Positions 1,492 to 20,459 of a DNA stretch of 36,821 nucleotides are shown one piece after another. The stretch lies in assembly GCA_012841305.1 (NCBI GenBank), contig DUVA01000081.1, positions 1-36,821 on the forward strand, in the 5' to 3' direction. The notes beneath the pieces are model-generated. The model was given only the letters and a program-made list of their open reading frames with translations. It did not search any database and was not told the DNA's origin. Made by a program: the position numbers and the translations under genes. Source of the stretch: Bacillota bacterium (lineage in GTDB: Bacteria; Bacillota; SHA-98; UBA4971). How positions within the stretch are numbered: position 1 is the first letter of the stretch; every line of letters begins with the position of its first letter.

Positions 1492-1513
1492 TTGAGCCTC
1501 AGGCGGCACCGAA

Positions 1514-2254
1514 TCACAAGAGGTCCTCACGCCTAGCCAGTTTGACTTCACGAATTCCCTTGACAAGGATAGTGTCTCTGCCTGACAAGAGCTCACGGCC
1601 ATTTGCTCCCCACCCTTCCCCCAGCTGTACTTCTACGTCTATTCTTACGGGAAAACTCTTCTCAAGCGTATCAGCCAGCTCGACGATGCGTGCCACCTCG
1701 TCCATGGAGACCCCTGTTACAACAACATCAAGGTCAGATCTGCCGTCAGTATACGGCAGCCCTGTATATATTTCTAAAGCGCCGGATCCCCATACTCCCA
1801 ACCTGATTCCGTCCGGGACTTTCTTTCTCATGACAGATAGCGCAGCCAATGCAGGAGTTCTTGGTACAAATGGCAGCTTTGCAACCTGCTGCGGAGTTAT
1901 TCGTCTTGTAATATGTTTACGATGGAGCACACACGGAACCCTGATTCTTCTTGACTCAGGCATAAATGGAATGACAAATCCTACTGCAATGAAGTCATCT
2001 TTCTTGCCGTCACCGTAAAGCTCACGTGCGGAGTCCATATCGCCATCGGTAAACCTTCGGACAATACCCGGAAGGTACACACCCTTAAGTCCATGTTCAA
2101 GCACCTGCTTGCAGTGGCTTCGCACGGAAGGTGACGGCCAGGAGTCTACCTTCAGCAGACCCTTTACATCCCAAGCCTGCCCCGACAACTGCTTGCGCCC
2201 TTCCGACGAGATTTCCACCAAGTCGTGCCTGGTAAACTCTTTCGGTGTCTGCAT
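1514..2254 (-). CDS. mdcG: Malonate decarboxylase holo-ACP synthase / phosphoribosyl-dephospho-CoA transferase (MdcG family)
   Basis: MQTPKEFTRHDLVEI... and YTDGRSDLDVVVTG nucleotidyltransferase-like motif; between madH-like and mdcB genes; MQTPKEF start has a GAGGTGAG SD. Confidence 0.78.
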   Translation of the reverse strand: MQTPKEFTRHDLVEISSEGRKQLSGQAWDVKGLLKVDSWPSPSVRSHCKQVLEHGLKGVYLPGIVRRFTDGDMDSARELYGDGKKDDFIAVGFVIPFMPESRRIRVPCVLHRKHITRRITPQQVAKLPFVPRTPALAALSVMRKKVPDGIRLGVWGSGALEIYTGLPYTDGRSDLDVVVTGVSMDEVARIVELADTLEKSFPVRIDVEVQLGEGWGANGRELLSGRDTILVKGIREVKLARREDLL

Positions 2255-2268
2255 TACTTGCAGAGGAC

Positions 2269-3405
2269 TCACCTCCTCTTGGTGTAAGCCGGGTCCCATA
2301 CCTTCTCCATCTCATATTTCACCTGGGCTTCGCCAAGGACATCAAAAAGCCTTGTCTTCTCCGGGCCTTCGATGAGAGCTACCATATTGGATTCGTCCTT
2401 GCAGGAACTGCTTTCGGACACAGACAACGACAACTTCAGCAGTGTTCTGCCAGCCCTAACCTTCACGTTCGGGGAACACTTCACAATTCTCGCCTTTGTT
2501 CTCAAAATGGTCCGGGCAACTCTTTGGACGACTTCGGCATTGGGGAGAGGGGATTCCAGGACACTTACTTCAAAGTCAGGATATGTCCGCATGCGTCTGT
2601 AAGTGATGATCTTGCCTTCGCTGTTTAGGACATGGCCTTTCGAGCTTACAGGGAAGCTGTCTGACATGGGAAGCCCCCCTACGACAAGCTCGTAATACTC
2701 TGTGCCGACCGGGGATTTTGCAAGTGAGATATCGTCCCTCAAAGGAACACCATCCATAGTCAGCCACCCGAACTCCTGGCACCCATAGAGGTCATGGACC
2801 TTTGCGCCGAGGAGTTCGTCTGCAATTGGTATAAGGCCCAGATCCATGGGAGTCCCTGCAACAAATATGGAGCTCACAGGGGGTAGGCAGTCCGCGATAC
2901 CCAGCTTTCTCGCGTCCTGCAAAGCGTAATTGATGAAAGCCGATTCTCCGACAATGAAGTCAGGCCTCTCTTCAATGATTGCCAGAAGAAAGGCATCCCT
3001 CGTTGAACGGCGAAGATAGCTCGCGCTGATCTCCAATTCCCGAAGCGCAGCCCACGGAAACACCAGGACCAAAGGGGGATATGTAAATAGCCCCTTAGCG
3101 CCGGACGTAATCCCAGCCAGCTCAAATGCGAGCAAGGATGCGCTGCTTCTATCCGGGATCTCGCTGAACGTGACCCCGACTACATTCTGAAAGGCAGTCG
3201 AACCTGTCGTAAATGATATGTAAGCATAATTCAACGGTGTATGGACTTCTTCGATAACGTGGGCAGCGGTTGGCCCGTTCGCCCCTTTGTCCGCCAGGGT
3301 TCTCCTGGGCATTTCTTCAACGGTAGGAGCCTGGCCCGGTGTCGCTACGCCGGCTCTCAATATCTCCAGGATCTGCTCTCGCTCAAACTCAGGGTGTAGG
3401 CCCAT
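2269..3405 (-). CDS. madH: AMP-forming ligase-like protein, candidate acetate:[malonate decarboxylase ACP-SH] ligase (MadH-like)
   Basis: Adenylate-forming family features (AYISFTTGSTAFQN, DLYGCQEFGWLTMDG, LNSEGKIITYRRMRTYPDFEV); inside the malonate decarboxylase cluster. Confidence 0.65.
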   Translation of the reverse strand: MGLHPEFEREQILEILRAGVATPGQAPTVEEMPRRTLADKGANGPTAAHVIEEVHTPLNYAYISFTTGSTAFQNVVGVTFSEIPDRSSASLLAFELAGITSGAKGLFTYPPLVLVFPWAALRELEISASYLRRSTRDAFLLAIIEERPDFIVGESAFINYALQDARKLGIADCLPPVSSIFVAGTPMDLGLIPIADELLGAKVHDLYGCQEFGWLTMDGVPLRDDISLAKSPVGTEYYELVVGGLPMSDSFPVSSKGHVLNSEGKIITYRRMRTYPDFEVSVLESPLPNAEVVQRVARTILRTKARIVKCSPNVKVRAGRTLLKLSLSVSESSSCKDESNMVALIEGPEKTRLFDVLGEAQVKYEMEKVWDPAYTKRR

Positions 3406-4345
3406 TATCCTCCCCTCCAAGCCAGCACGGAAGTGCCAAATCGAACTCGTTTTCCATGAGCTCGATAACCTTCTCCGAGGTCTTCCTGCCACCACGCCGG
3501 ATACCAGACATGAGCCTCGACCAAGGGCCTACTTTGTCATGTTCGCCGCCTGCCTTGAGCCTTCGAATCTCCGCTATCTGCGCCTCTACGCATGGCCGCA
3601 TATCTTCAACTGCCTCCACAATGCCGTCAACCCCACCGAGGTTATAAAAGTGCGAGACTCCTGCCGCAAATACCGGATTGCTCTCTGCAAGCTCCTCCAG
3701 AAGCACAATATTGATCTTCGTTACCCTGGCAATGCCTATTAGTGGCATCACGTGGATCATAGTCCCAAACGTATCAGAAAGCGCGAGGATCCTGTCTGCC
3801 TGGAGACCGTGACAGAGGAACCCTCCGCTTATCGCTCTGCCGATAACCATTGCGACAATGGGATGCCCCGATCTCCTGGCTTCCGCTGACGCCAACTGGT
3901 ATGCACCTGTTGACTTATAGATGCCTATGATCTCTTCGACCTTGCCAGGACTCATCCCGGGAGTGTCAACTACCAAGATAATCGGCCTTTTCTCTGCCAA
4001 GGGCTTATCTTCGTCTGCCTTGATGGTCAAGTAGACAGCATGCGCCATCTTAAGGCCTTCTTCCAGTCCCATGAGGCCGGCGTAGACCATTCTGAAACGA
4101 GGGTTTGCGAACCCTGCGTCATTTGCAATGACAGTTACGGTCTCCCCTGATATCCTGGCAGTTCCCACTAGCGCTGACTCTGCCCACTCTGGATCAAGTC
4201 TTTCTCCTCCACACAGATTCTCTTGGAAAGACCCTTCGTCAACTATGAGATCTATCGCATCACGACCCCTGCCGTAAAAGTTAATCACAGTCTCCAATCC
4301 TCCCCCGAGGCCAACGCTGGGCATGTGCCGCAAATTCTGAAACAT
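3389..4345 (-). CDS. madD: Malonate decarboxylase carboxyltransferase subunit (MadD/MdcE-like, gamma)
   Basis: Crotonase/carboxyltransferase-like IILVVDTPGMSPGKVEEIIGIYKSTGAYQLASAEARRSGHPIVAMVIGRAISGGFLCHGLQADRILAL; ORF open from 4438, start uncertain. Confidence 0.82.
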   Translation of the reverse strand: MFQNLRHMPSVGLGGGLETVINFYGRGRDAIDLIVDEGSFQENLCGGERLDPEWAESALVGTARISGETVTVIANDAGFANPRFRMVYAGLMGLEEGLKMAHAVYLTIKADEDKPLAEKRPIILVVDTPGMSPGKVEEIIGIYKSTGAYQLASAEARRSGHPIVAMVIGRAISGGFLCHGLQADRILALSDTFGTMIHVMPLIGIARVTKINIVLLEELAESNPVFAAGVSHFYNLGGVDGIVEAVEDMRPCVEAQIAEIRRLKAGGEHDKVGPWSRLMSGIRRGGRKTSEKVIELMENEFDLALPCWLGGEDNGPTP

Positions 4346-5267
4346 CAGAATCCCAAAGGTGTTCAATGTCTTCGTTGCCGAACTGCCTCCATAGATCCCA
4401 AGAGTCTTGGATTTTGTCGTTTGCAGCCAGCTCAACAAGGCGCATTTGCTCCAGCACCATGTCTCCCGTGCCTATGATCCTCTTGGAGCTTATCTTCTCA
4501 AGCGGCCAACTTGCAACTTCAGAAACTTTCTCTCTAAATGCCTTCATTGTGTCTTCCACAATGAAGTCCGCATCACGTGTGATGAACCTATGCCTGCCTC
4601 CTGTGGTCCGCCACACCAAAGCCCTGTTGGCAGCATCGAATTCCTCCGTCCCTACGACTTCCTCGATAACCCCCGGCCCTGTCAAACCCAGCCTTCCCAC
4701 ATCACTCATGATCAGCACGTCTACGGACGATGCCACAAAACCCATTCCTCCGAAACAACCTACGGTGCCCCCTATGACGCCGATAATCGGCACCTTGCCC
4801 CTTGCTGCTTGGAATGCATCCATCACTTCAGAATGAGCAAGCAGGCCTGCGTTGGCTTCCTGAAGCCTTACCCCGCCGGTGTCAAAGGAAATCACCAGCG
4901 CAACCTGGCCTGAGTCTTCAGAAGACCTATATTGTGATTTCAGAATCTCCTGCCCGCGCAAAGCAAGGCGGATGGCCATAACCATTTTTGTGCCGTGGAC
5001 TTCACCGACACCCCCTCCTACGAACCTGCTCTCCTGAGACACGACGACAACAGGGGCCTTGCCTGCCTTTCCCAAACCCACGACTATCCCGTCGTCAAAC
5101 TGCGGCGTCTGCCCCATTGGAGGTAGGTGAGGGCTGGTCAATTTACGCCTGGGACACAAGAGCTCGATGAAGCTGTCGGGATTACAGATGGCAAACGCCC
5201 TTTCTCTGGCATTGAGTCGCGAGAAAGGCTGGTCCTGCATTAGATTCCATCTATCGTCCATAACCAA
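4281..5267 (-). CDS. madC: Malonate decarboxylase carboxyltransferase subunit (MadC/MdcD-like, beta)
   Basis: LNARERAFAICNPDSFIELLCPRRKLTSPHLPP...VVVVSQESRFVGGGVGEVHGTKMVMAIRLAL...VIGVIGGTVGCFGGMGFVASSVDVLIMSD. Confidence 0.85.
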   Translation of the reverse strand: MVMDDRWNLMQDQPFSRLNARERAFAICNPDSFIELLCPRRKLTSPHLPPMGQTPQFDDGIVVGLGKAGKAPVVVVSQESRFVGGGVGEVHGTKMVMAIRLALRGQEILKSQYRSSEDSGQVALVISFDTGGVRLQEANAGLLAHSEVMDAFQAARGKVPIIGVIGGTVGCFGGMGFVASSVDVLIMSDVGRLGLTGPGVIEEVVGTEEFDAANRALVWRTTGGRHRFITRDADFIVEDTMKAFREKVSEVASWPLEKISSKRIIGTGDMVLEQMRLVELAANDKIQDSWDLWRQFGNEDIEHLWDSDVSEFAAHAQRWPRGRIGDCD

Positions 5268-5288: not shown

Positions 5289-5612
5289 CTATTTTACGGA
5301 CATTTCTCTTGCGAGTTGCGATAGTCTGAGCTTAACTACTGCCGGGGTGGCGCCGTCATCGTTTATCCAGATCTCGCATCCGCACACTTTGCGGGTAGCC
5401 ATGAACTCGTCGATAACCATCTGCCAGACGCTCCCAAACCCCACAGCGCTGGTAGTTATACGAATTCTACTTACATTGGCCTGAGCCGGTAAGCGCTCTA
5501 CCAGAATCTCCAGATCCCCTGACATTACATGCCCGACATGGAGATAATCCCAACCGTCTCTTTTCTCCTCCGGTACTCCGGTATACTCAAATTCCAATCG
5601 CTCCAGAGCCAC
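5289..5612 (-). CDS. madE: Malonate decarboxylase acyl carrier protein (MadE/MdcC family)
   Basis: 107 aa; HVMSGDLEILVE fits the conserved SGDLE prosthetic-group attachment serine of MdcC/CitD-like ACPs; between madA and madC. Confidence 0.83.
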   Translation of the reverse strand: MALERLEFEYTGVPEEKRDGWDYLHVGHVMSGDLEILVERLPAQANVSRIRITTSAVGFGSVWQMVIDEFMATRKVCGCEIWINDDGATPAVVKLRLSQLAREMSVK

Positions 5613-5652: not shown

Positions 5653-7335
5653 CTACCATTCCCTGAACCGGTCCGGGGGACGATAAAGCCCGCCTGACCA
5701 CTCCACCAATTCCCTTATGGAATGAGCTGCAAGATGCGAGGTGCTTGCATCTCCAATATCGATACCCAAATCCTCGGGAGTCTGAACTATTCCTTGCCGT
5801 CTGAGCTCCAGAGTCTCCTTAGGGTCGGCTTCCCTGCCCAGGTCAGTGTAACCTGCCACAGCCTTAATAGCGGCTTCTCGCTGTTTCAGCGAATCACATC
5901 TGAGAAGGTGCGCTATTCCTTCCTCAGTAACCAGGTGAGTAATGGCGTCACCGTACATCATGATAGGCGGAATTGCAAAGCCTGCTTCCTCCATCAGTGT
6001 CCATGCATCCAGACGATGGACGAAGCTTTGAACACGTCCTGCTCCAAAGGTTTCCACCATCTGAATAACCAGCTTTCTGCCACGCTCCACCGGTCCGATG
6101 AGGCCTCTTGTCATGGCGCTTTCCCTTCCCGCCCTAAGCCAACTCGGAGTGGAATGCCGCCTCCCGGGCGGATCACACCCCATGTTCGGTGCACCGCCGA
6201 ACCCTGCAATCCTGCCTGCAACCGCAGCAGAGCTATTACCATACCGATCAACCTGCAGAGTCGAGCCTACAAATGCATCGACAGCATAGTGGCCTGCAAC
6301 CTGGCACATAGCCCTATTTGACCTCATGTTTCCGTCGGGTCCGATGAAGAACACATCGGGACGACTGGCCATGTAATCCTCCATGCCCACCTCAGAGCCG
6401 AACGAATGAACCGACTCAACGAACCCGCATTCAATAGCCGGAATAAGACTGGGATGCGGATTTACCGTCCAATGAGAACAGATCTTGCCCTTAAGACCAA
6501 GGCTTTCCGCATACGTGGGAAGGAGCAATTCGATTGCACAAGTCCCGAAGCCGATTCCGTGATTCAGCGACCTCACTCCGTATTCCCCGTAGATACCTTT
6601 GATCACCATCATAGCCATAAGGACATGCACATCTGTGATAAGCGCAGGATCCCTTGTAAAGAGGGGCTCAGTATAGCATGGCCTGCCCACCGGGACAAGG
6701 AAATCCACCCACTCTCCGGGTATGTCGACTCGTGGCAGCTTATCCACGATCTTCTCAACCTGTGCCACGACAATCCCCTGTCTGAATTTGGTAGCTTCAA
6801 CTATCGTGGGGGTATCCTCTGTGTTCGGCCCGGTATATAGGTTACCGGCTCGGTCCGCCGAAATCGCAGCAACCAGCGCCACGTCCGGAGTGAGATCAAC
6901 GAAGTAACGGCCGAACAGCTCCAGATAGGTGTGGATCTCCCCTATCTTCATCTTGCCTTCGCTGACCATCTGAGCTACTCTGGCACTCTGAGGAGATGAG
7001 TATGAAAAATCAGCGAGCCGGGCAATTCCGCGCTCAAACACCTCACAGTGGGATGGAAGAGCAATAACTGACTGCACCATGTGAAGATTATTCACTCGCT
7101 TGGCGTCTACATTGCACAAACAGTCTGCCAGGAAATCAGCTTGTTTTTGGTTGTTTCCTTCAAGCGCCACCCTGTCACCTGACTGAATTACCGCCTCCAA
7201 TAAGGATACGCAATCAAGAGGATCCACTATCTTGCTGCCTGGCTCAGATACAAACTGTTGTGCCTCACATAGCCGCTTCAGAAACTCATTCTTCCTCAGC
7301 GTCCATTCAGTTCTTCTCGCAGCCATGCTTTCCAT
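5653..7335 (-). CDS. madA: Acetyl-S-ACP:malonate ACP transferase (MadA/MdcA, malonate decarboxylase alpha subunit)
   Basis: 560 aa; RTEWTLRKNEFLKRLCEA, GNNQKQADFLADCLCNVDAKRVNNLHMVQSV, CoA-transferase-like features typical of MdcA. Confidence 0.9.
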   Translation of the reverse strand: MESMAARRTEWTLRKNEFLKRLCEAQQFVSEPGSKIVDPLDCVSLLEAVIQSGDRVALEGNNQKQADFLADCLCNVDAKRVNNLHMVQSVIALPSHCEVFERGIARLADFSYSSPQSARVAQMVSEGKMKIGEIHTYLELFGRYFVDLTPDVALVAAISADRAGNLYTGPNTEDTPTIVEATKFRQGIVVAQVEKIVDKLPRVDIPGEWVDFLVPVGRPCYTEPLFTRDPALITDVHVLMAMMVIKGIYGEYGVRSLNHGIGFGTCAIELLLPTYAESLGLKGKICSHWTVNPHPSLIPAIECGFVESVHSFGSEVGMEDYMASRPDVFFIGPDGNMRSNRAMCQVAGHYAVDAFVGSTLQVDRYGNSSAAVAGRIAGFGGAPNMGCDPPGRRHSTPSWLRAGRESAMTRGLIGPVERGRKLVIQMVETFGAGRVQSFVHRLDAWTLMEEAGFAIPPIMMYGDAITHLVTEEGIAHLLRCDSLKQREAAIKAVAGYTDLGREADPKETLELRRQGIVQTPEDLGIDIGDASTSHLAAHSIRELVEWSGGLYRPPDRFREW

Positions 7336-7349
7336 ATTCTCAAGCCCCT

Positions 7350-7613
7350 TTATACTTCTTCCAGGGTCATAAGGAGGTCCCCGGCTTTTACCATTTGCCC
7401 TGTGCTTGCATGGATCTCCACAACTCTTGCCTTCTTAGGCGAGAGAATTTGGTTCTGCATCTTCATAGCCTCAATGAACGCTACTTCCTGTCTTACGTCA
7501 ACAACATCGCCTACCCCGGGCAAGTCAGTCTTTCTCATAGGGTGCTTGCCGGGATTTATGGTAAGCTGTCCCGGAAGCTTCGCTCTGATTTCAAACGAGT
7601 TTCCGTTTTTCAT
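7350..7613 (-). CDS. madF: Biotin carrier protein of malonate decarboxylase (MadF-like)
   Basis: 87 aa biotinyl domain with EAMKMQN biotinylation motif; between madB and madA. Confidence 0.9.
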   Translation of the reverse strand: MKNGNSFEIRAKLPGQLTINPGKHPMRKTDLPGVGDVVDVRQEVAFIEAMKMQNQILSPKKARVVEIHASTGQMVKAGDLLMTLEEV

Positions 7614-7678: not shown

Positions 7679-8815
7679 CTAGCCCAGTAGAGTCAGAAAG
7701 CACCCGGCTGCAACCGCAGTCCCGATTACGCCTGCGACGTTCGGGCCCATTGCATGCATAAGTAGGAAGTTCTCAGGGTTTGCCCTCTGTCCCTCCACCT
7801 GGCATACGCGGGCAGCCATAGGAACTGCTGACACTCCGGCTGCTCCGATAATTGGGTTTATCTTTCCTCCGCTCAACACGTAGAATAGTTTTCCAAGTAG
7901 GACTCCACCTGCTGTACTGACTGCGAATGCAACAGCGCCAAGCGCCAGGATCTTAAGGGTTGCCACAGTCAAGAAGGTATCAGCGCCCATTGTTCCGCCT
8001 ACAGCGATAGTCAGGAGTATGGTCACTATATTGACCATCTCACCCTGCGCGGTATTGAAAAGGCGATCCGTCACACCGGACTCCCTCAAGAGGTTTCCAA
8101 GCATTAGGCAACCTATAAGCGGGGTAGTATCCGGCAATAACAAACAACCGACAAGCGTTGTCACAATGGGAAAGAGGATTTTTGTGGTCTGTGAAACAGG
8201 CCTGGGATCCTCCATTACGGTCTCACGTTCTTTTTGTGTAGTAAGAAGGCGAATAACCGGCGGCTGAATCAAGGGCACAAGTGACATGTATGAGTAAGCC
8301 GCAACCGCCACAGCCCCTAGCAGATGAGGAGCGAGTTTCACAGCAAGGTAAATTGCGGTAGGGCCGTCTGCTCCGCCGATTATGGCGATAGAGGCAGCCT
8401 CTCTGATGCCAAAACCCAGCGCATCTGCGAGGAACATAGCGAAAAACACCCCGAACTGCGCTGCAGCCCCTAACAAGAAGGTTACAGGCCGAGCAAGCAA
8501 CGGACCAAAGTCAGTCAAAGCGCCTATTCCCATAAAAATCAAACATGGAAGTATTTCTGTTTCCAGTCCGTATGTGTAGAAGTAGTAGAGAAGTCCTCCT
8601 TCATCTGAAATGCCCGCTCCCGGAATATTGGCTAATAGGCACCCGAAGGCTATCGGCAGAAGCAGTAGGGGCTCAAAGCCCTTGCTAATGGCCAGGTAAA
8701 GGAGGACAATGGCAACTCCGATCATTATCAGGTTCCCCGCTGTCAAGCCCAGGAGTCCACCGGACGCTAACACTGATACCAAAGTTTTCAAAAACAAGGA
8801 TATCCCCCATCTCAT
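7679..8815 (-). CDS. madB: Na+-translocating carboxybiotin decarboxylase (MadB; OadB/GcdB/MmdB family)
   Basis: GGADGPTAIYLAVKLAPHLLGAVAVAAYSYMSLVPLIQPPVIRLL and GAAGVSAVPMAARVCQVEGQRANPENFLLMHAMGPNVAGVIGTAVAAG are hallmark beta-subunit motifs. Confidence 0.95.
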   Translation of the reverse strand: MRWGISLFLKTLVSVLASGGLLGLTAGNLIMIGVAIVLLYLAISKGFEPLLLLPIAFGCLLANIPGAGISDEGGLLYYFYTYGLETEILPCLIFMGIGALTDFGPLLARPVTFLLGAAAQFGVFFAMFLADALGFGIREAASIAIIGGADGPTAIYLAVKLAPHLLGAVAVAAYSYMSLVPLIQPPVIRLLTTQKERETVMEDPRPVSQTTKILFPIVTTLVGCLLLPDTTPLIGCLMLGNLLRESGVTDRLFNTAQGEMVNIVTILLTIAVGGTMGADTFLTVATLKILALGAVAFAVSTAGGVLLGKLFYVLSGGKINPIIGAAGVSAVPMAARVCQVEGQRANPENFLLMHAMGPNVAGVIGTAVAAGCFLTLLG

Positions 8816-9011: not shown

Positions 9012-10055
9012 TTATGCTTGCTCCGACGCTCCAAGGCTTCTTAAGAAAGCCGTCAAAAGTGTAGATACCTGGTCCATTGTGTTAAGGTCAATAACTTCGT
9101 ACGGAGAATGGGAATTTCGCCTCGGCACTGTCACCGAAACACACTTTATGTCAGACCACTCATCGTATACACCTGCAGCATCTGTAAACAGGCCAAAGCG
9201 CACATCCAGGCTATAAGGAATACCTGCCTTACCGGCTGATTCCTTAAGACCGGCCACAAGTTCTCTGTCAGCGAAGAACATCAACATACCCCTTGCGGGT
9301 TTCACTGACTCAAATCGCCTTATGACAGGCCCTGTACCCAGTGGGACTCCTACACCCGGCCCTGCTTCAGGATCCCCGCCATATCCTGTGTCAATGGAAA
9401 TAGCCCACTTCGGATAGACGGTTTTTGCCAGGTGCCGCGCTCCCCTGCATCCGATTTCCTCCTGAACCGTAAATGCGAACATCACGCTTACATCAAGTTC
9501 AACTTCGGCCAGGCGTCGTGCAGTCTCAAGTAAAATTGCACATCCTTGTCGATTATCAACTGCTCTTGATGCAAGCAGCGTTTCCTCGTCATCCAACCAT
9601 CGTGGAGTTGTGTCAAACACTATCGGATCTCCCGGTTCCACCTGAGAACAACGCGGCCCTGCATCAATCCAAAGGCGGTTTAGGGTTTGGCCTAAGTGAG
9701 TGCTGGGTGAACGAACTACACCCGGAACAGGCCCTTTTTCTGTTAGAATCACTACAGGTTGGCCTGCTGTCACAGCTGCGTTTATGTCCACCACAAATTC
9801 AAACCACACAAATCCGTCCCTGACATCAGTCGTGACCATGCTTATCTCATCCATGTGAGCCATCAGCACCAAAACCGGGGCTCCTTCCGGGCCTTCTCTA
9901 GTAGCCAATAAGTTCCCCATTCCGTCTGTTTGCACTGTGGACACATGTGATTGGATCTTCTTACTGATCACCTCTGCCACCGGCTGTTCAAAACCGGAGG
10001 GGCCTGGGATTTTCACAAGGTCAAGGAAATCACGGCGTAGATCTGCAATACCCAT
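9012..10055 (-). CDS. M42-family metallopeptidase (glutamyl aminopeptidase/endoglucanase-type) or related amidohydrolase
   Basis: Metal-site motifs MAHMDE, SRAVDNRQGCA, VQEEIGCRGARH, SIDTGYGGDP, NSHSPYEVID; start MGIADLRRDF with GGTGGGAG upstream. Confidence 0.85.
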   Translation of the reverse strand: MGIADLRRDFLDLVKIPGPSGFEQPVAEVISKKIQSHVSTVQTDGMGNLLATREGPEGAPVLVLMAHMDEISMVTTDVRDGFVWFEFVVDINAAVTAGQPVVILTEKGPVPGVVRSPSTHLGQTLNRLWIDAGPRCSQVEPGDPIVFDTTPRWLDDEETLLASRAVDNRQGCAILLETARRLAEVELDVSVMFAFTVQEEIGCRGARHLAKTVYPKWAISIDTGYGGDPEAGPGVGVPLGTGPVIRRFESVKPARGMLMFFADRELVAGLKESAGKAGIPYSLDVRFGLFTDAAGVYDEWSDIKCVSVTVPRRNSHSPYEVIDLNTMDQVSTLLTAFLRSLGASEQA

Positions 10056-10065
10056 TTGCTCCCAC

Positions 10066-10851
10066 CTACTCACTGTCAAATGCCACAATTCGGCATATGG
10101 AAGACTCCCCACCTACAAATCGCCATGGGAAGCACCCGATAATCATTCTCCTGTTAAGAATCTCGTCTATGTCCCCTCCCACATTCTCAGCATGGATAAT
10201 GTCATGAGGGAACAGAAGTGTGTGCATTATCTGATAATCCCGAGGCGGGAAAAAGGCATCAAGGCCTTTGCCGTACTTATTTTTGAGATGGAAGTCCGCC
10301 TCTCTTGCTTGCACGGGCATCCATTCGCGTATCTTGGTGTTCATTGGATGATCAGCGGACCCGCAGTCCACAGCAAGCCACTTCAGTCTCATTTCCTTAC
10401 ACCATTCCGCGAATTCCCTGGCTGGCCCTGGATGCTTAATCATGTACCTGACTTCGTCAGCCTCAGGCTGATCCCAAGCGTATCGGTGATAACCTGTGTT
10501 AATAACGACAATGTCGCCTTCCTTGACCTCGACCCTGTCTGTGATGTCTTTAGATGTGTAGATCCCGTAGTCTTCTGCAATGTCGCTGAGGTCTACCACT
10601 ACCCCTGGCCCCACAAGGTAATCCAAGGACAGGCTGGCAATATCCCTACCATGAGTACAGAAGTGCAATGGCCCGTCAAGATGGGTCCCTACGTGGTTAG
10701 ATGTAGTGATAAGCTGACCGTTGGCACCGTTGGGGCTGAGTCTCTTGAAGAACTTGATCTGAAGCGGTTCATAAGTCGGCCACGGCGGCGTAAGATGGCT
10801 TAGAGGTTGTGTAAGGTCATACATCTTCACCTTATCCCAAAACTTGGTCAT
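10066..10851 (-). CDS. Cyclase-family metal-dependent hydrolase (kynurenine formamidase / isatin hydrolase-like, PF04199)
   Basis: TTSNHVGTHLDGPLHF (HxGTHxDxPxHF signature), NTGYHRY, LAVDCGSADHPMN, LFPHDIIHAENVGGDIDEI. Confidence 0.87.
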   Translation of the reverse strand: MTKFWDKVKMYDLTQPLSHLTPPWPTYEPLQIKFFKRLSPNGANGQLITTSNHVGTHLDGPLHFCTHGRDIASLSLDYLVGPGVVVDLSDIAEDYGIYTSKDITDRVEVKEGDIVVINTGYHRYAWDQPEADEVRYMIKHPGPAREFAEWCKEMRLKWLAVDCGSADHPMNTKIREWMPVQAREADFHLKNKYGKGLDAFFPPRDYQIMHTLLFPHDIIHAENVGGDIDEILNRRMIIGCFPWRFVGGESSICRIVAFDSE

Positions 10852-10888: not shown

Positions 10889-12307
10889 CTAATTTCCGTC
10901 GGCGTACTCTTTCCCGAAGGCAATAATTGCCTTCTCAAAACATTCCCAAGGTGGATTCACCAATCCGGCTCCTACCTGGCCCACACCTGGAGCCTTATGG
11001 GCAATTCCGGTATTTATCTGAGGCAATATGCCTGTTTCCACTACTTTTCTGATGTCTATGCCTGTCGGTGTGCCCCTGAAGTTCAAGATGGGTATAGTAA
11101 AGTGCCTATTCTCAGTAATTGTTATGCTGTACATCTTCTCAGAAAACCTGATGGCGTCTTCAGGTGCGCCACCCACGAATTGAACAATGGGGATGGCAGC
11201 TGCCATAGCGAAGCCGCCCACACCTGCAGTCTCCGTTATCGCTGAGTCACCGATATCAGGGTTTGCATCTTCTTCAGAATACCCGGGGAAGTAAAGGCCC
11301 TTGACTATCTCTGCAGGACCGGTAAACCACTGATTGCCCAACCCGCTGACTTTAATTCCGAACTCCGTGCCGTTTCTGGCCATTATCGTCACAACAGAAC
11401 TCTTGTGGATACCGTGGGCAGCCTCAAGCATTGCCTTGACTGCAGGCATAGAAAGGTTGAGAAAGAAATGGTCGTTGGAATTAACGAATTCCAGGCACTT
11501 TCTAATATCAGCTTGTGGATGATCCACCTCCACCAGGTAAGGAACTAAGGCTCGTATGAGGAGGGATGTCCCTGCCCTGTTTCGATTATGCACTTCATCC
11601 CCCATGTGCAGTGCTTGGGCTATCATTGACTTGAGATCTATGCCGCCTGAAAGCTCAATTGCCTTCTTCAAGATTGGGGCGAGAACTTTCTCCATCCATC
11701 TCAGCCTATCCAAGACTTCCTCGCTGTAGGCTCCGTACCGGAGGACCTTTCCCAGGCCTTCGTTGAGTGTAGAATAGGATCGATTTCCATGGGTCCTGTT
11801 TTCCAAAATGAATACTGGCATCCTCGGCGAAACTACCCCTGCCATAGGCCCCACGGCAGAGTGCTCATGACACGGGGAGTACTCGATATCGCCTTTTGAG
11901 GCTAGTTCTTCAGCCTTCTCCGGTGAATCTGCCCACCCCTCGTACAAGATTGCACCTATCACAGCGCCGCGCAGAGGGCCCGACATTTTGCCCCAGGTGA
12001 TGGGAGGTCCTGCGTGAAGCAGCATTCGATCGCCAAATCCGGGAATTGCCTCACGGGCCACACCGATACCGGTAAGGACAGGTTGCGCTGAACTGAACCT
12101 CTCAATTGCCGTTTGGTTAGCCTTATCGATATCACTTCTGCCTTCCAGCTCATCAAGGATATCAATGAGTTCAGCCTTACCATGGGCAGGAGGCTGCCAT
12201 TTCACCTGATATACGTTGGCGCCTTGTTCCTGCATAGATTCGGCAAATACACCGCTTCCCACATTAATCACTCCCCCTTCAGGGGGCCAATTCCTTATCG
12301 TAAGCAC
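10889..12307 (-). CDS. allG: DUF1116 protein (YlbE/AllG-like), candidate carbamoyltransferase subunit
   Basis: 472 aa; NVGSGVFAESMQEQGANVYQVKWQPPAHG...LILYEGWADSPEKAEELASKGDIEYSPCHEHSAVGPMAGVVSPRMPVFILENRTHGNRSYSTLNEGLGKVLRYG, DUF1116-like; next to FdrA-like gene. Confidence 0.82.
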   Translation of the reverse strand: MLTIRNWPPEGGVINVGSGVFAESMQEQGANVYQVKWQPPAHGKAELIDILDELEGRSDIDKANQTAIERFSSAQPVLTGIGVAREAIPGFGDRMLLHAGPPITWGKMSGPLRGAVIGAILYEGWADSPEKAEELASKGDIEYSPCHEHSAVGPMAGVVSPRMPVFILENRTHGNRSYSTLNEGLGKVLRYGAYSEEVLDRLRWMEKVLAPILKKAIELSGGIDLKSMIAQALHMGDEVHNRNRAGTSLLIRALVPYLVEVDHPQADIRKCLEFVNSNDHFFLNLSMPAVKAMLEAAHGIHKSSVVTIMARNGTEFGIKVSGLGNQWFTGPAEIVKGLYFPGYSEEDANPDIGDSAITETAGVGGFAMAAAIPIVQFVGGAPEDAIRFSEKMYSITITENRHFTIPILNFRGTPTGIDIRKVVETGILPQINTGIAHKAPGVGQVGAGLVNPPWECFEKAIIAFGKEYADGN

Positions 12308-13875
12308 TGTCTCGTTCCTCCCTGCGCCTTGATAATTCGAGATACCAAATCTGCCGCTGCCCGGTTCGAGGAAAGGACCTCTGCTCCTGCCTCGCTCAAG
12401 ACTGCGGCCTGCTTCTCCAAGCCTTGGGGATCTCCTGCAGTGCCCACCATGACAGCAATCTGCGCCAGCCCTTGGCCCATATCCTTTCGAATCCGCCCGG
12501 CTTCCCTCACGGCTTCAGCCATTACGCCTGCAGGATCTCTGTGACACCCGTACCCCAACACTACATCGAATAGAAGGATCCCCACATCCTTACGGCCTGC
12601 CTCCGCAATGTACCTGGGAACTCTCATTCCTGGATCCAGCATTGGGTGGGGCTTTCCTCGGGTAAAGTAATCCTCTCCCATATCAATACAAGTGTTGGCA
12701 AAACTCTCCAGAGGGTCTTCAATCAAGAGTCGTCTATCCTGTGCAATGTTGGAATACACATCTATGCCCATCCTTCGGAGCATAGTCAGTGTTTCATGGC
12801 ACAGGGTCCCACCTGAGTACAACCCTCTGAAGTATCCTCCACCATCCACCCTTCTCATCACTTTACGGGCCATTTCGTCGAGTTCATCGCGAGAGTAGAG
12901 GCTCTCCTTGGACTCTCCGGTTGCCAATTGATAAGCCAGAATCGCAGCCTCCTCCAGATCACCGGCAAACAGCACCTTACCTGATCGGCTTCTGCGGGCT
13001 TCCCCAACCTCCTCACCCATGAAGCACACAACCACGGGTTTTGCCCCGTCGTCCAACATCCTTATGAGGTTGTCACGAACACTGGGATGAGGGGGCTTTG
13101 ATATCAAGACTTTGACAGCTGTGTTGGGATCTGATTCAAGAAAAGCCAATCCCATAAAAGTGGTAATCCCGCCTACGTCTTTACTCAAATCGCGCCCGCC
13201 TGTTCCGATAGCTTCAGAGATTCCTTCACCAAGCCTGTCGATAATAGCCATTACCTGTTGCAGCCCTGTACCGGCTGCAGCCACAATACCAATCCTCCCG
13301 GACCTGACTTTATTCGCGAACCCTAGTCCCAGACCGCCGATGACAGCAGTCCCGCAATCAGGCCCCATAACAAAGAGGCCCTTCTCTTTGCCTGACTTCT
13401 TTAGGCGGACCTCATCCTCAACAGAGACGTTGTCGCTGAACAAAAAGACATGTAAGCCACTGGCAAGGGCCTCTCCGGCTTCCCTTGCGGCATACTCACC
13501 GGGAACGGATATTGCTGCGATTCCAGCGCCTCCCACAGAGGCTGCTTCGGACAGAGTCGCATAGATCTTTGCTGCCTTTACGCCTGGCTCTTGCCGGGCG
13601 GAGCCTTCCAAACTTTCCTTAATGACTTCCTCTGCGTTATCTATGGCATCCTCGGCTTCTGCCACAACAGCGACAATGAGATCATTGGCTGTAGCTGTCT
13701 CCAGTTCTTGGGAGACAAACCCCATTTCCCTGACTGCGTCCTTATTAAGCCCAGTCGCCATTCCCACCTGAGCTGCGACCACCTTATCTATGTTCCGGAC
13801 TGTCCGGGCCAGGCGCATGAGCACAATAGAGTCATGGTAACTATTGGGCTTTATTACCAACCTTTTGAACACCAC
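12295..13875 (-). CDS. allF: FdrA-like protein (AllF), candidate carbamoyltransferase subunit with succinyl-CoA-ligase-like folds
   Basis: VMGPDCGTAVIGGLGLGFANKVRSGRIGIVAAAGTGLQQVMAIIDRLGEGISEAIGTGGRDLSKDVGGITTF; FdrA-like length and context. Confidence 0.85.
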   Translation of the reverse strand: MVFKRLVIKPNSYHDSIVLMRLARTVRNIDKVVAAQVGMATGLNKDAVREMGFVSQELETATANDLIVAVVAEAEDAIDNAEEVIKESLEGSARQEPGVKAAKIYATLSEAASVGGAGIAAISVPGEYAAREAGEALASGLHVFLFSDNVSVEDEVRLKKSGKEKGLFVMGPDCGTAVIGGLGLGFANKVRSGRIGIVAAAGTGLQQVMAIIDRLGEGISEAIGTGGRDLSKDVGGITTFMGLAFLESDPNTAVKVLISKPPHPSVRDNLIRMLDDGAKPVVVCFMGEEVGEARRSRSGKVLFAGDLEEAAILAYQLATGESKESLYSRDELDEMARKVMRRVDGGGYFRGLYSGGTLCHETLTMLRRMGIDVYSNIAQDRRLLIEDPLESFANTCIDMGEDYFTRGKPHPMLDPGMRVPRYIAEAGRKDVGILLFDVVLGYGCHRDPAGVMAEAVREAGRIRKDMGQGLAQIAVMVGTAGDPQGLEKQAAVLSEAGAEVLSSNRAAADLVSRIIKAQGGTRQCLR

Positions 13876-14765
13876 GCATACCTCCTTTGCCAGTTCAGGG
13901 CAAGGTAAATGCCTAGCCCTATATCACAGCCGGACGTAGCGCCCACTGAAAGCAACCTACCTACTGCGTCTTTTGCCTCACCGGGTTCTCCTGTAAGCAC
14001 GTAAACCAAGGCTCTTTCTACAGTCTCATGAGCGCATCCTTCCAGCGCTCGATTAATGAAGAACGCGCTGAGATCAGACGTCTTGTGCAGGTTCCTTCTA
14101 ACGCAGGCTTCCCATATACTCCCTTTCGATCGCCAGGGTGTTCCAAAAACACTCCTGGCCAAACTGATTCCAAGGACCAAATCATCACCACTGGGAGTAA
14201 GGCCCGGCCCAAACCCGATTACCCCAGCCAAAGCCTTCTCCAGCCCTTCCCTGTCATTCTCAAGCAAAGTCCTTCTGATATCCTCAATGACCCCGCCGCA
14301 CGCAGCCGGTTCACTGTTGACATTGAACTTGAAACCTCTGCTAAACACAGAATCATTATGTTTTGAAGCTAGGGCTGATTCTAGAACTGCCATGTTCTCG
14401 TCTCCAATTGTATGCAGGCAATTGACAGCCTCTAAAGGGCTTCTCCATCCCTTGCTGCCACTGAAATCTATGACAGTCTTTTCTCCAAGCCACAGGCTGC
14501 AGGAGGCAGGCATGCCGGCTTCATCTCCCGGAGATACGTCCAGGGCGAAGAAAGAGAACCTTTCTGATACAGCCACTGTCGCAACGTCCTTTCCACATCC
14601 TCGTCCCAGCGGCAGGATAGTGAGAAAGCCTGACCCGGCTACAAGGTTAACGGCATGAGTGAATACACTGTGCACCTTAAATGTCTTCCGGTCTTTCAAC
14701 ACACGTTCGAATTCTCGGCCGTGACTTACTGCGGTTAGATAAAATGGCTGTTCATACATATCCAT
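13854..14765 (-). CDS. allH: DUF2877 protein (YlbF/AllH-like), candidate carbamoyltransferase subunit
   Basis: ALAGVIGFGPGLTPSGDDLVLGISLA, DUF2877-like PSGDD motif; adjacent to allF/allG-like genes. Confidence 0.8.
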   Translation of the reverse strand: MDMYEQPFYLTAVSHGREFERVLKDRKTFKVHSVFTHAVNLVAGSGFLTILPLGRGCGKDVATVAVSERFSFFALDVSPGDEAGMPASCSLWLGEKTVIDFSGSKGWRSPLEAVNCLHTIGDENMAVLESALASKHNDSVFSRGFKFNVNSEPAACGGVIEDIRRTLLENDREGLEKALAGVIGFGPGLTPSGDDLVLGISLARSVFGTPWRSKGSIWEACVRRNLHKTSDLSAFFINRALEGCAHETVERALVYVLTGEPGEAKDAVGRLLSVGATSGCDIGLGIYLALNWQRRYAWCSKGW

Positions 14766-14901: not shown

Positions 14902-16635
14902 TCACAGGCATCCGTTGAGGTGGTGCCCCATATCGAAGATCCTGGACAAGCGGAGAGCTGTCTGTAAGGACAGACGTTGATCAGCATGATTGGGGTCAAG
15001 GCCTGTAAGTTCCTTTATTTTTCTCAGCCGGTAAAGGATTGTGTTGTAATGAGCATACATCAACTCTGCGGTCTTTCGGGCGTTACCGTTAGTTTTGAAG
15101 TAAGCCTCAAGGGTCTTCAGGAGTTCGCCGCCTTTTGACCCGTCGTAATCCCGAAGCTCACCTATAATCTCATCGGCAAATCGCTTCTGCTCATCCAGGT
15201 CTGCCTGGCCCAACAGAAGACCGTATATACCCAGCATTTCGTAGTGGATGTTCTGACCTTTGCCGAAAATAACTTTACCCAGGTCCATGGCTACTTTAGC
15301 CTCTCTGAACCCTCTCTTTATACCTGTCACGCCACTAACCCGGCGGCTGACGCCTGAACTCACTGTCCATCTCCCAAGGTTGCTACGGGCCTTCTTGAGC
15401 AAGCGGTCAGTCCAAGACGTGACATCATCTTCGTTGACTTGCCCCGGATACACAAACAGCAGGATTCCACTGGCATGCCTGGTCAGAATATACCTTAGAC
15501 GATTTCTCCGGCAAAAATCAGCAATAACAGTCGTAGCCTGTGTCTTTGCCAGTTGACATGCTTTTTCATACTCGGCGATATCGCTGATTTCCCTTGACGG
15601 CAGGACATCGAAAAGGATCGTCACGTAGTCCAAACCCAGATTCCATCCGAATGTCCTGGCTCGTTCCAGGAATCCCTCTTCAGCCGGATTGTCAGAGGAA
15701 AACAGTTGATCCAGGAATTCTGTGCGGTATTTCTGCTCTACCTGCGTCACGTCATGATAACGTATTACGTCAAGAGCAATAAGCGGGCAAAGCCGCTCCA
15801 GACTGTACAAGTCTGTTACGCTAAACTCCCCGAAGAATTTCACTGCTGTAAGAGACCCTAACTGCTCGTTTGCCGCGGTAACCGGAGCGCGGATGATTTC
15901 AGCTTTATAGCCGTTTGTCTCAACCTGGTTGCGTTTGAACCAAAGCACAGTGCCTTCCACGCGATCAGTGAATGTCTCAGGTTCAAGATGCTCCGTAGGC
16001 CGATCAAGCAACTCACCTATGAGGGCCTCGTTAGACGGTCCCCAGCACATACCGGACACTGATCTTCTCAGATTCAACGAATCGTCTATAGATACCACTG
16101 CCTGGAGAAGGTCTGCTGCGGCTCCCGATATCTCCTGAAGGCCTCCCCCCTGCAGCAGGAGGTTTATGAACCTTCTGTGAGCGACTAGGCTAACCTGCAC
16201 AAACCTGCTTTGGCGATTAACGAGTTCTGCCAGGACGGCTGATATGAGGTCAGAGAAGTTGGCTTCACGTGGAAGCTCCAGGAGAGGCACTCCAAGTTCA
16301 TCTGCGGCATCTATCATGTGAGGCGGAATCGCGTCTATGTACCGTTTCGGTTTCATACCCAGCACTGCCAATCCTTTACTCGCAAGAGTCGGCAGTAGGG
16401 CTCTTTGAGCGTCCAGGTTGTCCTTGATTGCATAGCCTGTTGTCAAGAGCATGTCTCCCTCTCGCACCCAGTCGAGGATATCAGGGACTTCCATGACGTT
16501 AATGTTAGTGACAACCCGTTCCATACCGGACCTGCCCCCGGCTACGGCAACCCCGGAGAATTCAGGCAACTCGAGAACTTCTCTGACAGTGATTCCGACT
16601 TCATGAAACATCATTTGCGACCCTCCATGAACCAT
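14902..16635 (-). CDS. PucR-family transcriptional regulator
   Basis: PucR N-domain GITVREVLELPEFSGVAVAGGRSGMERVVTNINVMEVPDILDWVREGDMLLTTGYA and C-terminal HTH NARKTAELMYAHYNTILYRLRKIKELTGLD; MFHEVGI start likely slightly downstream. Confidence 0.9.
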   Translation of the reverse strand: MVHGGSQMMFHEVGITVREVLELPEFSGVAVAGGRSGMERVVTNINVMEVPDILDWVREGDMLLTTGYAIKDNLDAQRALLPTLASKGLAVLGMKPKRYIDAIPPHMIDAADELGVPLLELPREANFSDLISAVLAELVNRQSRFVQVSLVAHRRFINLLLQGGGLQEISGAAADLLQAVVSIDDSLNLRRSVSGMCWGPSNEALIGELLDRPTEHLEPETFTDRVEGTVLWFKRNQVETNGYKAEIIRAPVTAANEQLGSLTAVKFFGEFSVTDLYSLERLCPLIALDVIRYHDVTQVEQKYRTEFLDQLFSSDNPAEEGFLERARTFGWNLGLDYVTILFDVLPSREISDIAEYEKACQLAKTQATTVIADFCRRNRLRYILTRHASGILLFVYPGQVNEDDVTSWTDRLLKKARSNLGRWTVSSGVSRRVSGVTGIKRGFREAKVAMDLGKVIFGKGQNIHYEMLGIYGLLLGQADLDEQKRFADEIIGELRDYDGSKGGELLKTLEAYFKTNGNARKTAELMYAHYNTILYRLRKIKELTGLDPNHADQRLSLQTALRLSRIFDMGHHLNGCL

Positions 16636-16824: not shown

Positions 16825-18063
16825 TTACGCTTCGGCTCTCGGAAGAATCTGGTTGAGGATTATGCCGAGTATAGCTGCAAGGCCCATACCACCCAGTTGA
16901 GCATTGCCCCACAGGGTAATCATTGCACCGCCGATACCCACAACCAGAATTACACTGGCAATAAACAAGTTCCTTGAATCCTTCAAATCAACATTGTTCT
17001 CTACCATAGTCCTAACGCCGATAGCTGCAATCATACCAAAGAGCACAATAGAGATTCCTCCGATAACAGGATCGGGAATCGTCCTGATGGCCGCGCCAAG
17101 CTTCCCAACGAATGCCAATAGGATGGCAGCGACTGCTGCTACCCTCATAACCTCAGGCTTCCACACTTTCGTCAAGGCCAAGACACCGGTATTCTCAGAG
17201 TAAGTAGTGTTGGCAGGCCCGCCAAACAAACCTGCAAGCGATGTAGCAACACCGTCTCCCAGAAGTGTCCTGGTGAGGCCTGGGTCTTCTATGAAGTCGT
17301 CTTCCACCGTAGCTCCTACAGCCAGAATATCTCCAACGTGTTCCACCATACTGGCAAAAGCTGCAGGGGCAATGATCCCGATAGCAGCAGCGTCAAACAC
17401 AGGGAATGTAAATTGCGGCAGTCCTATCCACGCTGCCTGCACCACCGGGGTCGGATCTACGTTACCTGTTATGAGACAGATTATGTACCCGACAACAATC
17501 CCTGCAATAACCGGCAACAATCTCAGGAAACCCTTGAGATACAGGTTTACAATAGCAACTGTAGCAAGCACAATCAGCGCGATCGGCCAATTCTGGCTTG
17601 CGCTTCCGATGGCAACAGGCGCCAGGTTCAACCCTATTACCATAATGATAGGTCCTGTAACCACAGGCGGAAGTATCCGCTGCATAAACTCAGGGCCAAG
17701 AAAATGAATGAGAATTCCGAAAGCTACATAAAGAAAGCCGGCTACAATAATTCCTCCCTGAGCTGCAGGAATTCCCTTTTCTGCCACCACCATTGCCACC
17801 GGCGCAATAAACGCAAATGATGATCCCAAAAACACCGGCACTCTTCCTCTAGTAACCAGATGAAACCATAGAGTTCCGATTCCTGCTGTGAACAAAGCTA
17901 CGCTGACGTCAAGGCCGGTTAGGAGCGGAACAAGAACTGTGGCGCCGAACATGGTGAACGCATGTTGAAGACCGAGTATGAGCAGTTGGTGTGTAGGCAG
18001 ATGGTCTCCGGGTTTAATCGGCCCCATGATTCTCGTGTTAACCGTTGGCTTAGTACTAGCCAT
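16825..18063 (-). CDS. NCS2/NAT nucleobase permease of the UraA (uracil) type
   Basis: [97 protein letters not shown] start at 18063. Confidence 0.9.
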
Positions 18064-18110
18064 TACTTTTTCCTCCCTTCGTGCTCCTTCGCCCATCGCT
18101 CTACAAATAG

Positions 18111-20459
18111 TCAGCGAAGGGATGCACTCGCTCTCTCTTTAAGCGCCCAATACACCTTCTCTGATGTCATGGGTAATGTCCTCACCCTTATGCCTGCTGC
18201 GTGATACAGCGCGTTTGCAATAGCGGGAGGCGTTGGCACCATGACATGCTCTCCTATTCCTCTCGCTCCGTACGGTCCGTCTTCCTGAGGAACCTCCACG
18301 AAATCAACAAGCAACTCATCAGGTATATCGGCTGCAGTAGATATCTTATAATCAATGTAAGATGGATTCAAGAGTTTTCCTTGCTCGCTGAATTTCATTT
18401 CCTCAAGCAAACCTATACTTATGCCCTGTACTACACCCCCTTCCACTTGAGTCTTGGCAGTAACTGGGTTGATGACTCGTCCGGCGTCATACACTGCAGC
18501 GACTTTGAGAACACGTATCTTCCCTGTCTCGACATCAAGCTCGATTTCCACGGCTTGAGCCCCGTAGGTCCAATTGGCTACCGGTTTCTCACTCTGTCCG
18601 GTCTCAGGGTTCATAGCAGTAATCCCTTCCGGGATAAACGTTCCTCTTCCTATCACCGGCCCTCCGTAGCCACTGAAGTCCGGAAGAGTGACGCCCAGTG
18701 ACAACGTGCCTATGTGAACAGATCTCTTGGGATCACTCTTTACGAAGACCTTGCTTTCTGCAATATCAATGTCTTCAACAGGAACCCCGAAATATTTGGC
18801 CCCATGCCCCAGAACCTGGCGCCTGGCATCTTTGGCAGCAGCAATGACCGCCCTGCCACACGAGTAAGTAATCCTGCTGGCTACAGTCTGCCACTCATAT
18901 GCGCTAAAATCAGTGTCGATAGGCTGTACTCTGACATCTTCGTACCTGACTCCGAGCTCATTGGCAAGTATTTGAGCCAGAACGGTAAATGAGCCTTGTC
19001 CCAGTTCTTGGGCACCGATGCTCAAATAGACCGTCCCGTCATCATTTAGCTTAACAATAGCTGAAGATGCCGCATCATTCGGCATGGCAGGCGCCTTAGT
19101 CATACAAGCGATGCCTTTTGCCCGGACTTTCTTTACGCCGGGCTCAATGACCCCAGGCCCACTCACCTCTTGCCAACCGATGAGTTCAGCAGTCCTTTCA
19201 AGACACTGTTCTATGCCTGGGTTACGAAGCACCTGTCCTGTTGCGTTTGTGGAGCCGTCCCTTTGCAAGTTGATCCTGCGGAGCTCGACCGGATCCATAC
19301 CTAGCTCATGGGCAATCTGGTCTATGTGTTGCTCCATTGCCCAGTGATTCTCACTGTGGCCGAAGCCGCGCAGCGGGCCTCCGACAGGCTTATTTGTATA
19401 TACGCAATATGAATCTGTCTTCATATTAGGTATGTCATACACTCCGGATGAGCTGTATCCTGCTGCCCTTGTCACATTCACCCCATATTCCGTATACGCG
19501 CCCGCGTCCCAGTACATTTCAAACTCCTGGGCGGTGAACCTGCCATCGTGTTTGACTCCGGTTTTGAGACGGCATAACATTCCCTGTCTGACAAAAGTGT
19601 CTCTGAACTCCTCTTCTCTCGTACACACCAGTTTAATCGGTGCATTCCTGCATTTCATCGCAAGGGGTACCAGAGTCGCCTCAACATTGAGCCCGGCCTT
19701 ACCGCCAAAACCTCCGCCCACATACGGTCCGATAACCCTCACCTTGTTCATGGGAAAGCCCAGACTGTGGCTTAGGATGTTGCGCATTGCAAAGGGGGAT
19801 TGTGAACTTGCCCATATAGTCAGCTTGTCATTACGGTCGTAGAGAGCTATCGCAGCATGGGGCTCAATGGGTGAATGCTGAATATGAGGCACGTAATACT
19901 CACGTTCAAATATTAGGTCAGCCTCAGCAAACCCCTTTTCAATATCGCCTTTACGTATTCTGAAGTGGTTACTGATATTAGTATTAGGTATAGGGAAAAA
20001 AGCAGCTCCAATCTCATATGTATGGAGATCAGGATGCACCAGGCAAGCGCCGGGCTTTATGGCTTCCCGTAGATCAAGCACAGGAGGAAGCTCTTCATAT
20101 TCCACCTCTATCAGTCTCAAAGCTTCTTCAGCGATCTCCAAGGACTCGGCAGCGACGCCTGCCACAGGTTCCCCGTAATATCGCACTTTATCCACTGCAT
20201 AGGGCGTGCGATCTTTTAGGTAAAGCCCCATCCTATTTGGAAAATCCTTGCCTGTGACAACAGCCTTTACACCGGGCAGTTCTTGTGCTTTCCTTGTGTC
20301 GATTCGCACAATATGGGCATGTGCGTACTCACTTCTTAAGAGCTTCGCAAACAGCATCCCTGGGAACTTCAGATCACCTGCATAACGTGCTGCCCCGGTC
20401 ACCTTCTCCACCGCGTCATTTCGTATGACGCCCACACCCAAATAGTCTTCGCGTGCCAC
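18111..20459 (-). CDS. Molybdenum hydroxylase large subunit (xanthine dehydrogenase family; substrate not assigned)
   Basis: GGGFGGKAG, GGPLRGFGHSENHWAMEQ, GAQELGQGSFTVLAQI, GPYGARGIGEHVMVPTPPAIANAL. Confidence 0.93.
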   Translation of the reverse strand: MAREDYLGVGVIRNDAVEKVTGAARYAGDLKFPGMLFAKLLRSEYAHAHIVRIDTRKAQELPGVKAVVTGKDFPNRMGLYLKDRTPYAVDKVRYYGEPVAGVAAESLEIAEEALRLIEVEYEELPPVLDLREAIKPGACLVHPDLHTYEIGAAFFPIPNTNISNHFRIRKGDIEKGFAEADLIFEREYYVPHIQHSPIEPHAAIALYDRNDKLTIWASSQSPFAMRNILSHSLGFPMNKVRVIGPYVGGGFGGKAGLNVEATLVPLAMKCRNAPIKLVCTREEEFRDTFVRQGMLCRLKTGVKHDGRFTAQEFEMYWDAGAYTEYGVNVTRAAGYSSSGVYDIPNMKTDSYCVYTNKPVGGPLRGFGHSENHWAMEQHIDQIAHELGMDPVELRRINLQRDGSTNATGQVLRNPGIEQCLERTAELIGWQEVSGPGVIEPGVKKVRAKGIACMTKAPAMPNDAASSAIVKLNDDGTVYLSIGAQELGQGSFTVLAQILANELGVRYEDVRVQPIDTDFSAYEWQTVASRITYSCGRAVIAAAKDARRQVLGHGAKYFGVPVEDIDIAESKVFVKSDPKRSVHIGTLSLGVTLPDFSGYGGPVIGRGTFIPEGITAMNPETGQSEKPVANWTYGAQAVEIELDVETGKIRVLKVAAVYDAGRVINPVTAKTQVEGGVVQGISIGLLEEMKFSEQGKLLNPSYIDYKISTAADIPDELLVDFVEVPQEDGPYGARGIGEHVMVPTPPAIANALYHAAGIRVRTLPMTSEKVYWALKERASASLR

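Follow-up and report, generated by a model that had tools for sequence, protein, structure and literature searches.

We conclude that a cyclase-family (PF04199) metal hydrolase of a Bacillota bacterium probably hydrolyzes barbiturate to ureidomalonate, replacing the unrelated AtzD-family barbiturase in an anaerobic oxidative pathway of uracil breakdown. Ring opening is ascribed to this protein because its gene sits in an AtzD-like slot, does not co-occur with AtzD in 399 genomes, and has neighbors that would lead from uracil to malonate, and because the protein has the fold of isatin hydrolase. Thus, the activity put forward in the original prediction is supported by context.

The cyclase gene and its operon

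The gene lies in a stretch of 36,821 nucleotides (the window, meaning the whole of the DNA analyzed). It encodes 261 amino acids from an ATG start (the coordinates in Table 1 include the stop codon), and an AAGGAGG ribosome-binding site lies 5′ of the start. PF04199 was the sole Pfam family matched (E = 1.2e-36; 126.5 bits vs. a gathering score of 23.1). The metal signature HxGTHxDxPxHF had been claimed to be intact; indeed, it is present as HVGTHLDGPLHF (His53–Phe64), although its proline is not kept in the orthologs, which have P, S, A, E, or Q at this position. The metal-ligand and base positions (H53, H57, D59, and H63 in the signature, plus H210 and E222) are invariant across 56 orthologs.

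All genes from position 21823 down to 601 are on the minus strand (Table 1). The cyclase gene stands, as claimed, between AllG-like and M42/mad genes: AllG is upstream, across a gap of 37 nt, and the M42 gene is directly downstream, followed by the malonate decarboxylase genes. An overlap of the M42 and cyclase genes was rejected, as the likely M42 ATG (10055) falls past the cyclase stop. The genes for AllF, AllG, and AllH are mutually adjacent in the window, as in an AllFGH operon. GGKE is the motif of purine XDH; the GGKA of the molybdenum subunit encoded here may serve as a weak hint only.

Table 1. Features of the window, in minus-strand order.
Feature	Coordinates	Strand	Basis or remark
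XDH-family FAD subunit	20954..21823	-	profile match
XDH-family 2Fe-2S subunit	20459..20950	-	profile match
XDH-family molybdenum subunit, proposed uracil hydroxylase	18111..20459	-	GGGFGGKAG motif, GARGIGE present
NCS2 nucleobase permease	16825..18096	-	best model uracil permease (below cut-off); ncs2 superfamily above
PucR-type regulator	14902..16635	-	profile match
AllH	13854..14765	-	PF11392
FdrA/AllF	12295..13875	-	above NCBIfam cut-off
AllG, AllFGH transcarbamylase-type subunit	10889..12307	-	PF06545, E = 9.4e-104
Cyclase-family metal hydrolase, proposed barbiturase	10066..10851	-	PF04199; proposed ring opening, barbiturate to ureidomalonate
M42-family hydrolase	9012..10055	-	likely ATG start at 10055
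OAD-beta/MadB-type Na+-pumping decarboxylase subunit	7679..8815	-	TIGR01109 above cut-off
87-aa biotin carrier, MadF-like	7350..7613	-	EAMKM biotinylation motif
MdcA/MadA, malonate decarboxylase alpha	5653..7335	-	above cut-off
Malonate decarboxylase acyl carrier protein (ACP)	5289..5612	-	TIGR03130 above cut-off
Malonate decarboxylase beta subunit (MdcD)	4281..5267	-	above cut-off
Malonate decarboxylase gamma subunit (MdcE)	3389..4438	-	above cut-off
408-aa protein inside malonate decarboxylase cluster	2269..3495	-	no Pfam/family match
MdcG-like phosphoribosyl-dephospho-CoA transferase	1514..2299	-	NCBIfam just below cut-off
MdcB/CitG-type triphosphoribosyl-dephospho-CoA synthase	601..1602	-	profile match

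Downstream, a MadB-type subunit, a biotin carrier, and Mdc-type alpha, ACP, beta, and gamma subunits are co-located. With OAD-beta and the biotin carrier next to Mdc subunits, this module is a Mad-type malonate decarboxylase that probably pumps Na+. Its gene order, B-A-E-C-D-H, presumably resembles that of the Malonomonas rubra mad cluster, with the 408-aa protein in what we take to be the MadH position. The 87-aa biotin carrier, located between OAD-beta and MdcA, was missed by the 100-aa ORF cut-off. Elsewhere in the source genome, carbamate kinase is present (C192), and the best CN-hydrolase in a search for a malonamate amidase was only 36% identical. The M42 hydrolase might, as a weak possibility, be the malonamate amidase.

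Fold and active site

The AF2 model of the cyclase has a mean pLDDT of 83.3, with low values (53–58) in residues 21–70, the N-terminal metal-binding stretch. In a fold search with this model, the best PDB structure matches were isatin hydrolases (E = 2.4e-13), and kynurenine formamidase was close behind, among other PF04199 structures; no AtzD was among the matches. By sequence, the best PDB matches were to KynB, the bacterial kynurenine formamidase.

Does the active site resemble that of a cyclic amidohydrolase? The likeness to isatin hydrolase, a cyclic amidohydrolase of PF04199, comprises the fold, the HxxxHxDxxxH metal/base residues, and His210. The relevant residues of LaIHA are His69, His73, Asp75, His79, His207, and Gln219 (PMC6117287); H53, H57, D59, H63, and H210 of the cyclase share the spacing of the first five. 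The sixth differs: E222 aligns with isatin hydrolase Gln219 and with KynB Glu172, and where isatin hydrolases have Gln or Ala (GLQC or GLAS), the cyclase has HAEN, with the invariant Glu222. Identity to isatin hydrolase is about 20%. The comparison of the model with this enzyme thus bore out the fold but not the Gln219 position, which is occupied as in kynurenine formamidase. Indeed, all metal-ligand positions of KynB, its Glu172 included, have their equivalents in the cyclase (H53, H57, D59, H210, and E222). The cyclase nevertheless scores only 54.8 bits against the KynB equivalog TIGR03035 (cut-off 223.05), is about 50 residues longer, and lacks a tryptophan pathway context.

The LaIHA study leaves open whether Glu at the Gln219 position means linear amides (PMC6117287). 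Because Glu222 follows the kynurenine formamidase pattern, the active site alone is no proof of cyclic-amide activity, and ring specificity is drawn from context. The same pattern would fit a linear amidase that converts malonamate to malonate in this pathway, the ring being opened by another enzyme, and the source genome has no clear CN-hydrolase ortholog. However, the cyclase and a CN-hydrolase occur together in 19 of the 80 best loci (see below), the cyclase alternates with the ring opener AtzD, and the loci hold no other conserved ring-opening candidate. We consider such a role quite unlikely, and barbiturate ring opening is the reading that we retain. The stretch WPTYEPLxxKxFKR is invariant in, and characteristic of, the cyclase group; it includes K33, K36, and R37, which would suit the binding of an anionic substrate such as barbiturate.

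Distribution, relation to AtzD, and gene neighborhoods

The cyclase is a member of a large conserved family and is not peculiar to the source genome. A survey of 399 genomes of the phylum found homologs (E < 1e-30) in 42, many of them 76–88% identical, across some two dozen families. A scan of genome_contigs returned at least 585 related stretches, which places the observation far beyond chance; the loci analyzed here are the best 80 of these. Close orthologs are mostly 60–90% identical. The best 80 loci derive from Firmicutes/Bacillota, Synergistetes, Thermotogales, Spirochaetes, Elusimicrobia, Atribacterota, Anaerolineaceae, and others, many being MAGs, and the family is present in the cultured Carboxydothermus islandicus, Clostridium magnum, and Acidaminobacter hydrogenoformans.

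How does this family relate to AtzD? The original prediction saw no AtzD-family enzyme, and an AtzD-family barbiturase co-regulated elsewhere in the genome would have spoken against it; a search of the source genome with PF09663 yielded no match. As this MAG is 88.9% complete, the absence is not absolute; the same search detected AtzD in 12 further genomes of the phylum and therefore works. The cyclase itself has no sequence match to PF09663. Among the 399 genomes, AtzD occurs in 12 and AllG in 60, and none holds both cyclase and AtzD. Cyclase and AllG are found together in 39 genomes (Fisher 4e-35), AtzD and AllG in 10 (Fisher 1.5e-7), and within AllG genomes cyclase and AtzD exclude one another (p = 4.7e-6); all three values ignore descent. 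One family (f15) holds both types, in different genera.

The AtzD genes are ORFs of 365–372 aa. Most lie adjacent to AllG or close to it, in operons of the order PucR-AllH-FdrA-AllG-AtzD, and several of these operons also include NCS2 and carbamate kinase. In loci L167–L171 and L174–L176, AtzD adjoins AllH-FdrA-AllG, and carbamate kinase is present in several. Because AtzD and the cyclase share the slot at the side of AllG, this slot would belong to a ring-opening enzyme that supplies AllFGH with its substrate. By hand count, XDH accompanies 21 of 31 cyclase loci vs. 0 of 9 AtzD loci (p = 0.0003), so that XDH would mark a ring first made by oxidation. We rejected the AtzD-AllG operons as barbiturase operons: they are without XDH, and the one AtzD tested scored above the cut-off of a curated model for cyanuric acid hydrolase. 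Of the proposed replacement of the AtzD/barbiturase family, the slot beside AllG thus held up, but the AtzD that the cyclase parallels looks like a cyanuric acid hydrolase and not a barbiturase. These operons suggest that AllFGH also serves cyanurate breakdown, perhaps acting on carboxybiuret.

AllG is immediately upstream of the cyclase in 52 of the 77 loci scored (from the best 80) and is absent nearby in 14 of the 80, many on short contigs. Every one of the 40 long loci (>18 kb) has AllG and FdrA; the XDH molybdenum subunit is found in 34, NCS2 in 31, CoA-transferase III in 19, CN-hydrolase in 12, and carbamate kinase in 7. The carbamate kinase of cyclase loci scores above the TIGR00746 cut-off, and formamidase and amidases are the closest matches to the CN-hydrolase. 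Malonate modules occur in a minority of cyclase loci, some of which carry malonyl-CoA-type modules of MmdA, biotin carrier, and OAD-beta. In C. islandicus (L083), one run comprises AllH-FdrA-AllG-CoA-transferase-cyclase-carbamate kinase-CN-hydrolase-MmdA-biotin carrier-OAD-beta-XDH.

The CoA-transferase III is nearest, below cut-off, to CoA:oxalate transferase models. This likeness, and the fact that AllFGH is the oxamic transcarbamylase of E. coli (PMC11326118), would accord with a route via parabanate, or another path to oxalurate, that yields oxamate and oxalate. Such a route is highly unlikely in our estimation: the window and several distant clusters encode malonate/malonyl-CoA decarboxylases, the neighbors are those of pyrimidine metabolism, and, in a crude test, the TPP-enzyme motif of oxalyl-CoA decarboxylase occurred in 0 of 64 size-matched unassigned ORFs.

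Uridine phosphorylase is encoded directly downstream of the cyclase in five loci, above cut-off in L126, just below it in L113, and assigned by similarity in L097, L105, and L130. Near the cyclase, L121 encodes a cytosine deaminase that exceeds the cut-off; those of L086, L126, and L129 score close to this threshold. Such pyrimidine neighbors are compatible with either direction of breakdown, and the cyclic amidohydrolase fold would also befit a dihydropyrimidinase-like opener of the reductive pathway, with AllFGH taking carbamoyl from N-carbamoyl-beta-alanine. However, dihydropyrimidine dehydrogenase was not recognized among the genes neighboring the cyclase; XDH-type hydroxylase, amidase, and malonate modules are there instead, and beta-alanine would not need them. 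Further, AllFGH is known to act on an N-acylurea, where the leaving group is an amide (PMC11326118). We give the reductive role very little credence.

A second cyclase paralog, about 47–49% identical, occurs in a separate AllG operon (L071, L072) in genomes that also have the main type (G282, G346); it possibly acts on a different ring, e.g., 5-methylbarbiturate. Its presence could mean two substrates. The main type might then act chiefly on the thymine-derived ring 5-methylbarbiturate, or on both barbiturates, with ureidomethylmalonate as the product and methylmalonyl units formed next, and one carboxyltransferase (L066) indeed scores best, below cut-off, with methylmalonyl-CoA decarboxylase alpha. 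On the other hand, the decarboxylase of the window is of the malonate type, with several subunits above cut-off, and the neighboring uridine phosphorylase and cytosine deaminase feed uracil. A related ring is thus an unlikely substrate, and barbiturate is preferred.

Other genes were observed in these loci. Two loci in which no XDH was seen encode an AFOR-family (tungsten-type) oxidoreductase (L126:466-2385, L130:2532-4445) next to the cyclase and the genes for cytosine deaminase and uridine phosphorylase; this oxidoreductase is a candidate alternative uracil oxidase. A GNAT-like protein (no family match), a thiolase, and an OB-fold protein recur near the cyclase (L119:10861-13090; L093, L102, L111, L128, L131, L137); in L065 and L066, the GNAT-like protein is encoded after a malonyl-CoA decarboxylase-type module as well, and it may handle malonyl-CoA. 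An ornithine-carbamoyltransferase gene directly follows the cyclase in L104:1919-2935 and L120:3279-4241, with no AllG nearby.

Proposed pathway and comparison with known systems

The substrate and the order of steps proposed here are inferred, and the reactions are assigned by homology. An XDH-type enzyme would oxidize uracil at C6 to barbiturate. Metal-bound water of the cyclase would then attack a ring carbonyl, converting barbiturate to ureidomalonate (3-oxo-3-ureidopropionate). With phosphate, AllFGH would split this compound, an N-acylurea like oxalurate, into malonamate and carbamoyl-phosphate, from which carbamate kinase would form ATP. Malonamate would be deamidated to malonate, in many genomes by the CN-hydrolase, and malonate would be decarboxylated either directly (in the window, by the Mad-type Na+ pump) or as malonyl-CoA (in other genomes). 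In E. coli, the oxamic transcarbamylase activity of AllFGH was assayed in the reverse direction, its N-acylurea being oxalurate (PMC11326118).

A full-text literature search, with most subscription papers outside its scope, found no characterized PF04199/cyclase-family barbiturase and nothing on AllFGH with ureidomalonate. Papers on riboflavin and 4-hydroxypyridine catabolism, checked for a PF04199 pyrimidine-ring hydrolase, do not mention the family.

We find it reasonably likely that the cyclases are a second, non-homologous barbiturase family of many anaerobic phyla, acting in an anaerobic, energy-conserving route of uracil breakdown where ureidomalonate is phosphorolyzed by AllFGH to carbamoyl-phosphate and malonamate, and that AllFGH is shared by three heads (allantoin, cyanurate, and barbiturate). 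Oxidative pyrimidine breakdown has been called rare because AtzD/Bar homologs occur in only ~3% of surveyed genomes (PMC3758960). If the cyclase is a barbiturase, this count misses a large anaerobic branch, the widespread label “cyclase family protein” becomes a named enzyme, and AllFGH gains a second substrate; one would also predict uracil fermentation in which carbamoyl-phosphate supplies ATP and malonate a Na+ gradient.

The AtzD family, which includes the Rhodococcus barbiturase Bar (EC 3.5.2.1) and cyanuric acid hydrolase, would have its reaction type, hydrolysis of a cyclic trioxo ring, in common with the cyclase, and in this phylum it has the same AllH-FdrA-AllG surroundings; its fold, however, is different. 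The anaerobic allantoin pathway of E. coli (AllFGHK) is similar in its AllF, AllG, and AllH homologs and in drawing ATP from a ureido acid by carbamate kinase. Here, by contrast, the head consists of the cyclase and an XDH-type enzyme, and the product points to malonate, not oxamate. Finally, the known oxidative pyrimidine pathway, which uses an AtzD-type barbiturase and ureidomalonase (PMC3758960), would have barbiturate, ureidomalonate, and malonate in common with the pathway proposed here; the latter would differ in its unrelated ring opener and in replacing ureidomalonase with phosphorolysis, which would conserve energy.
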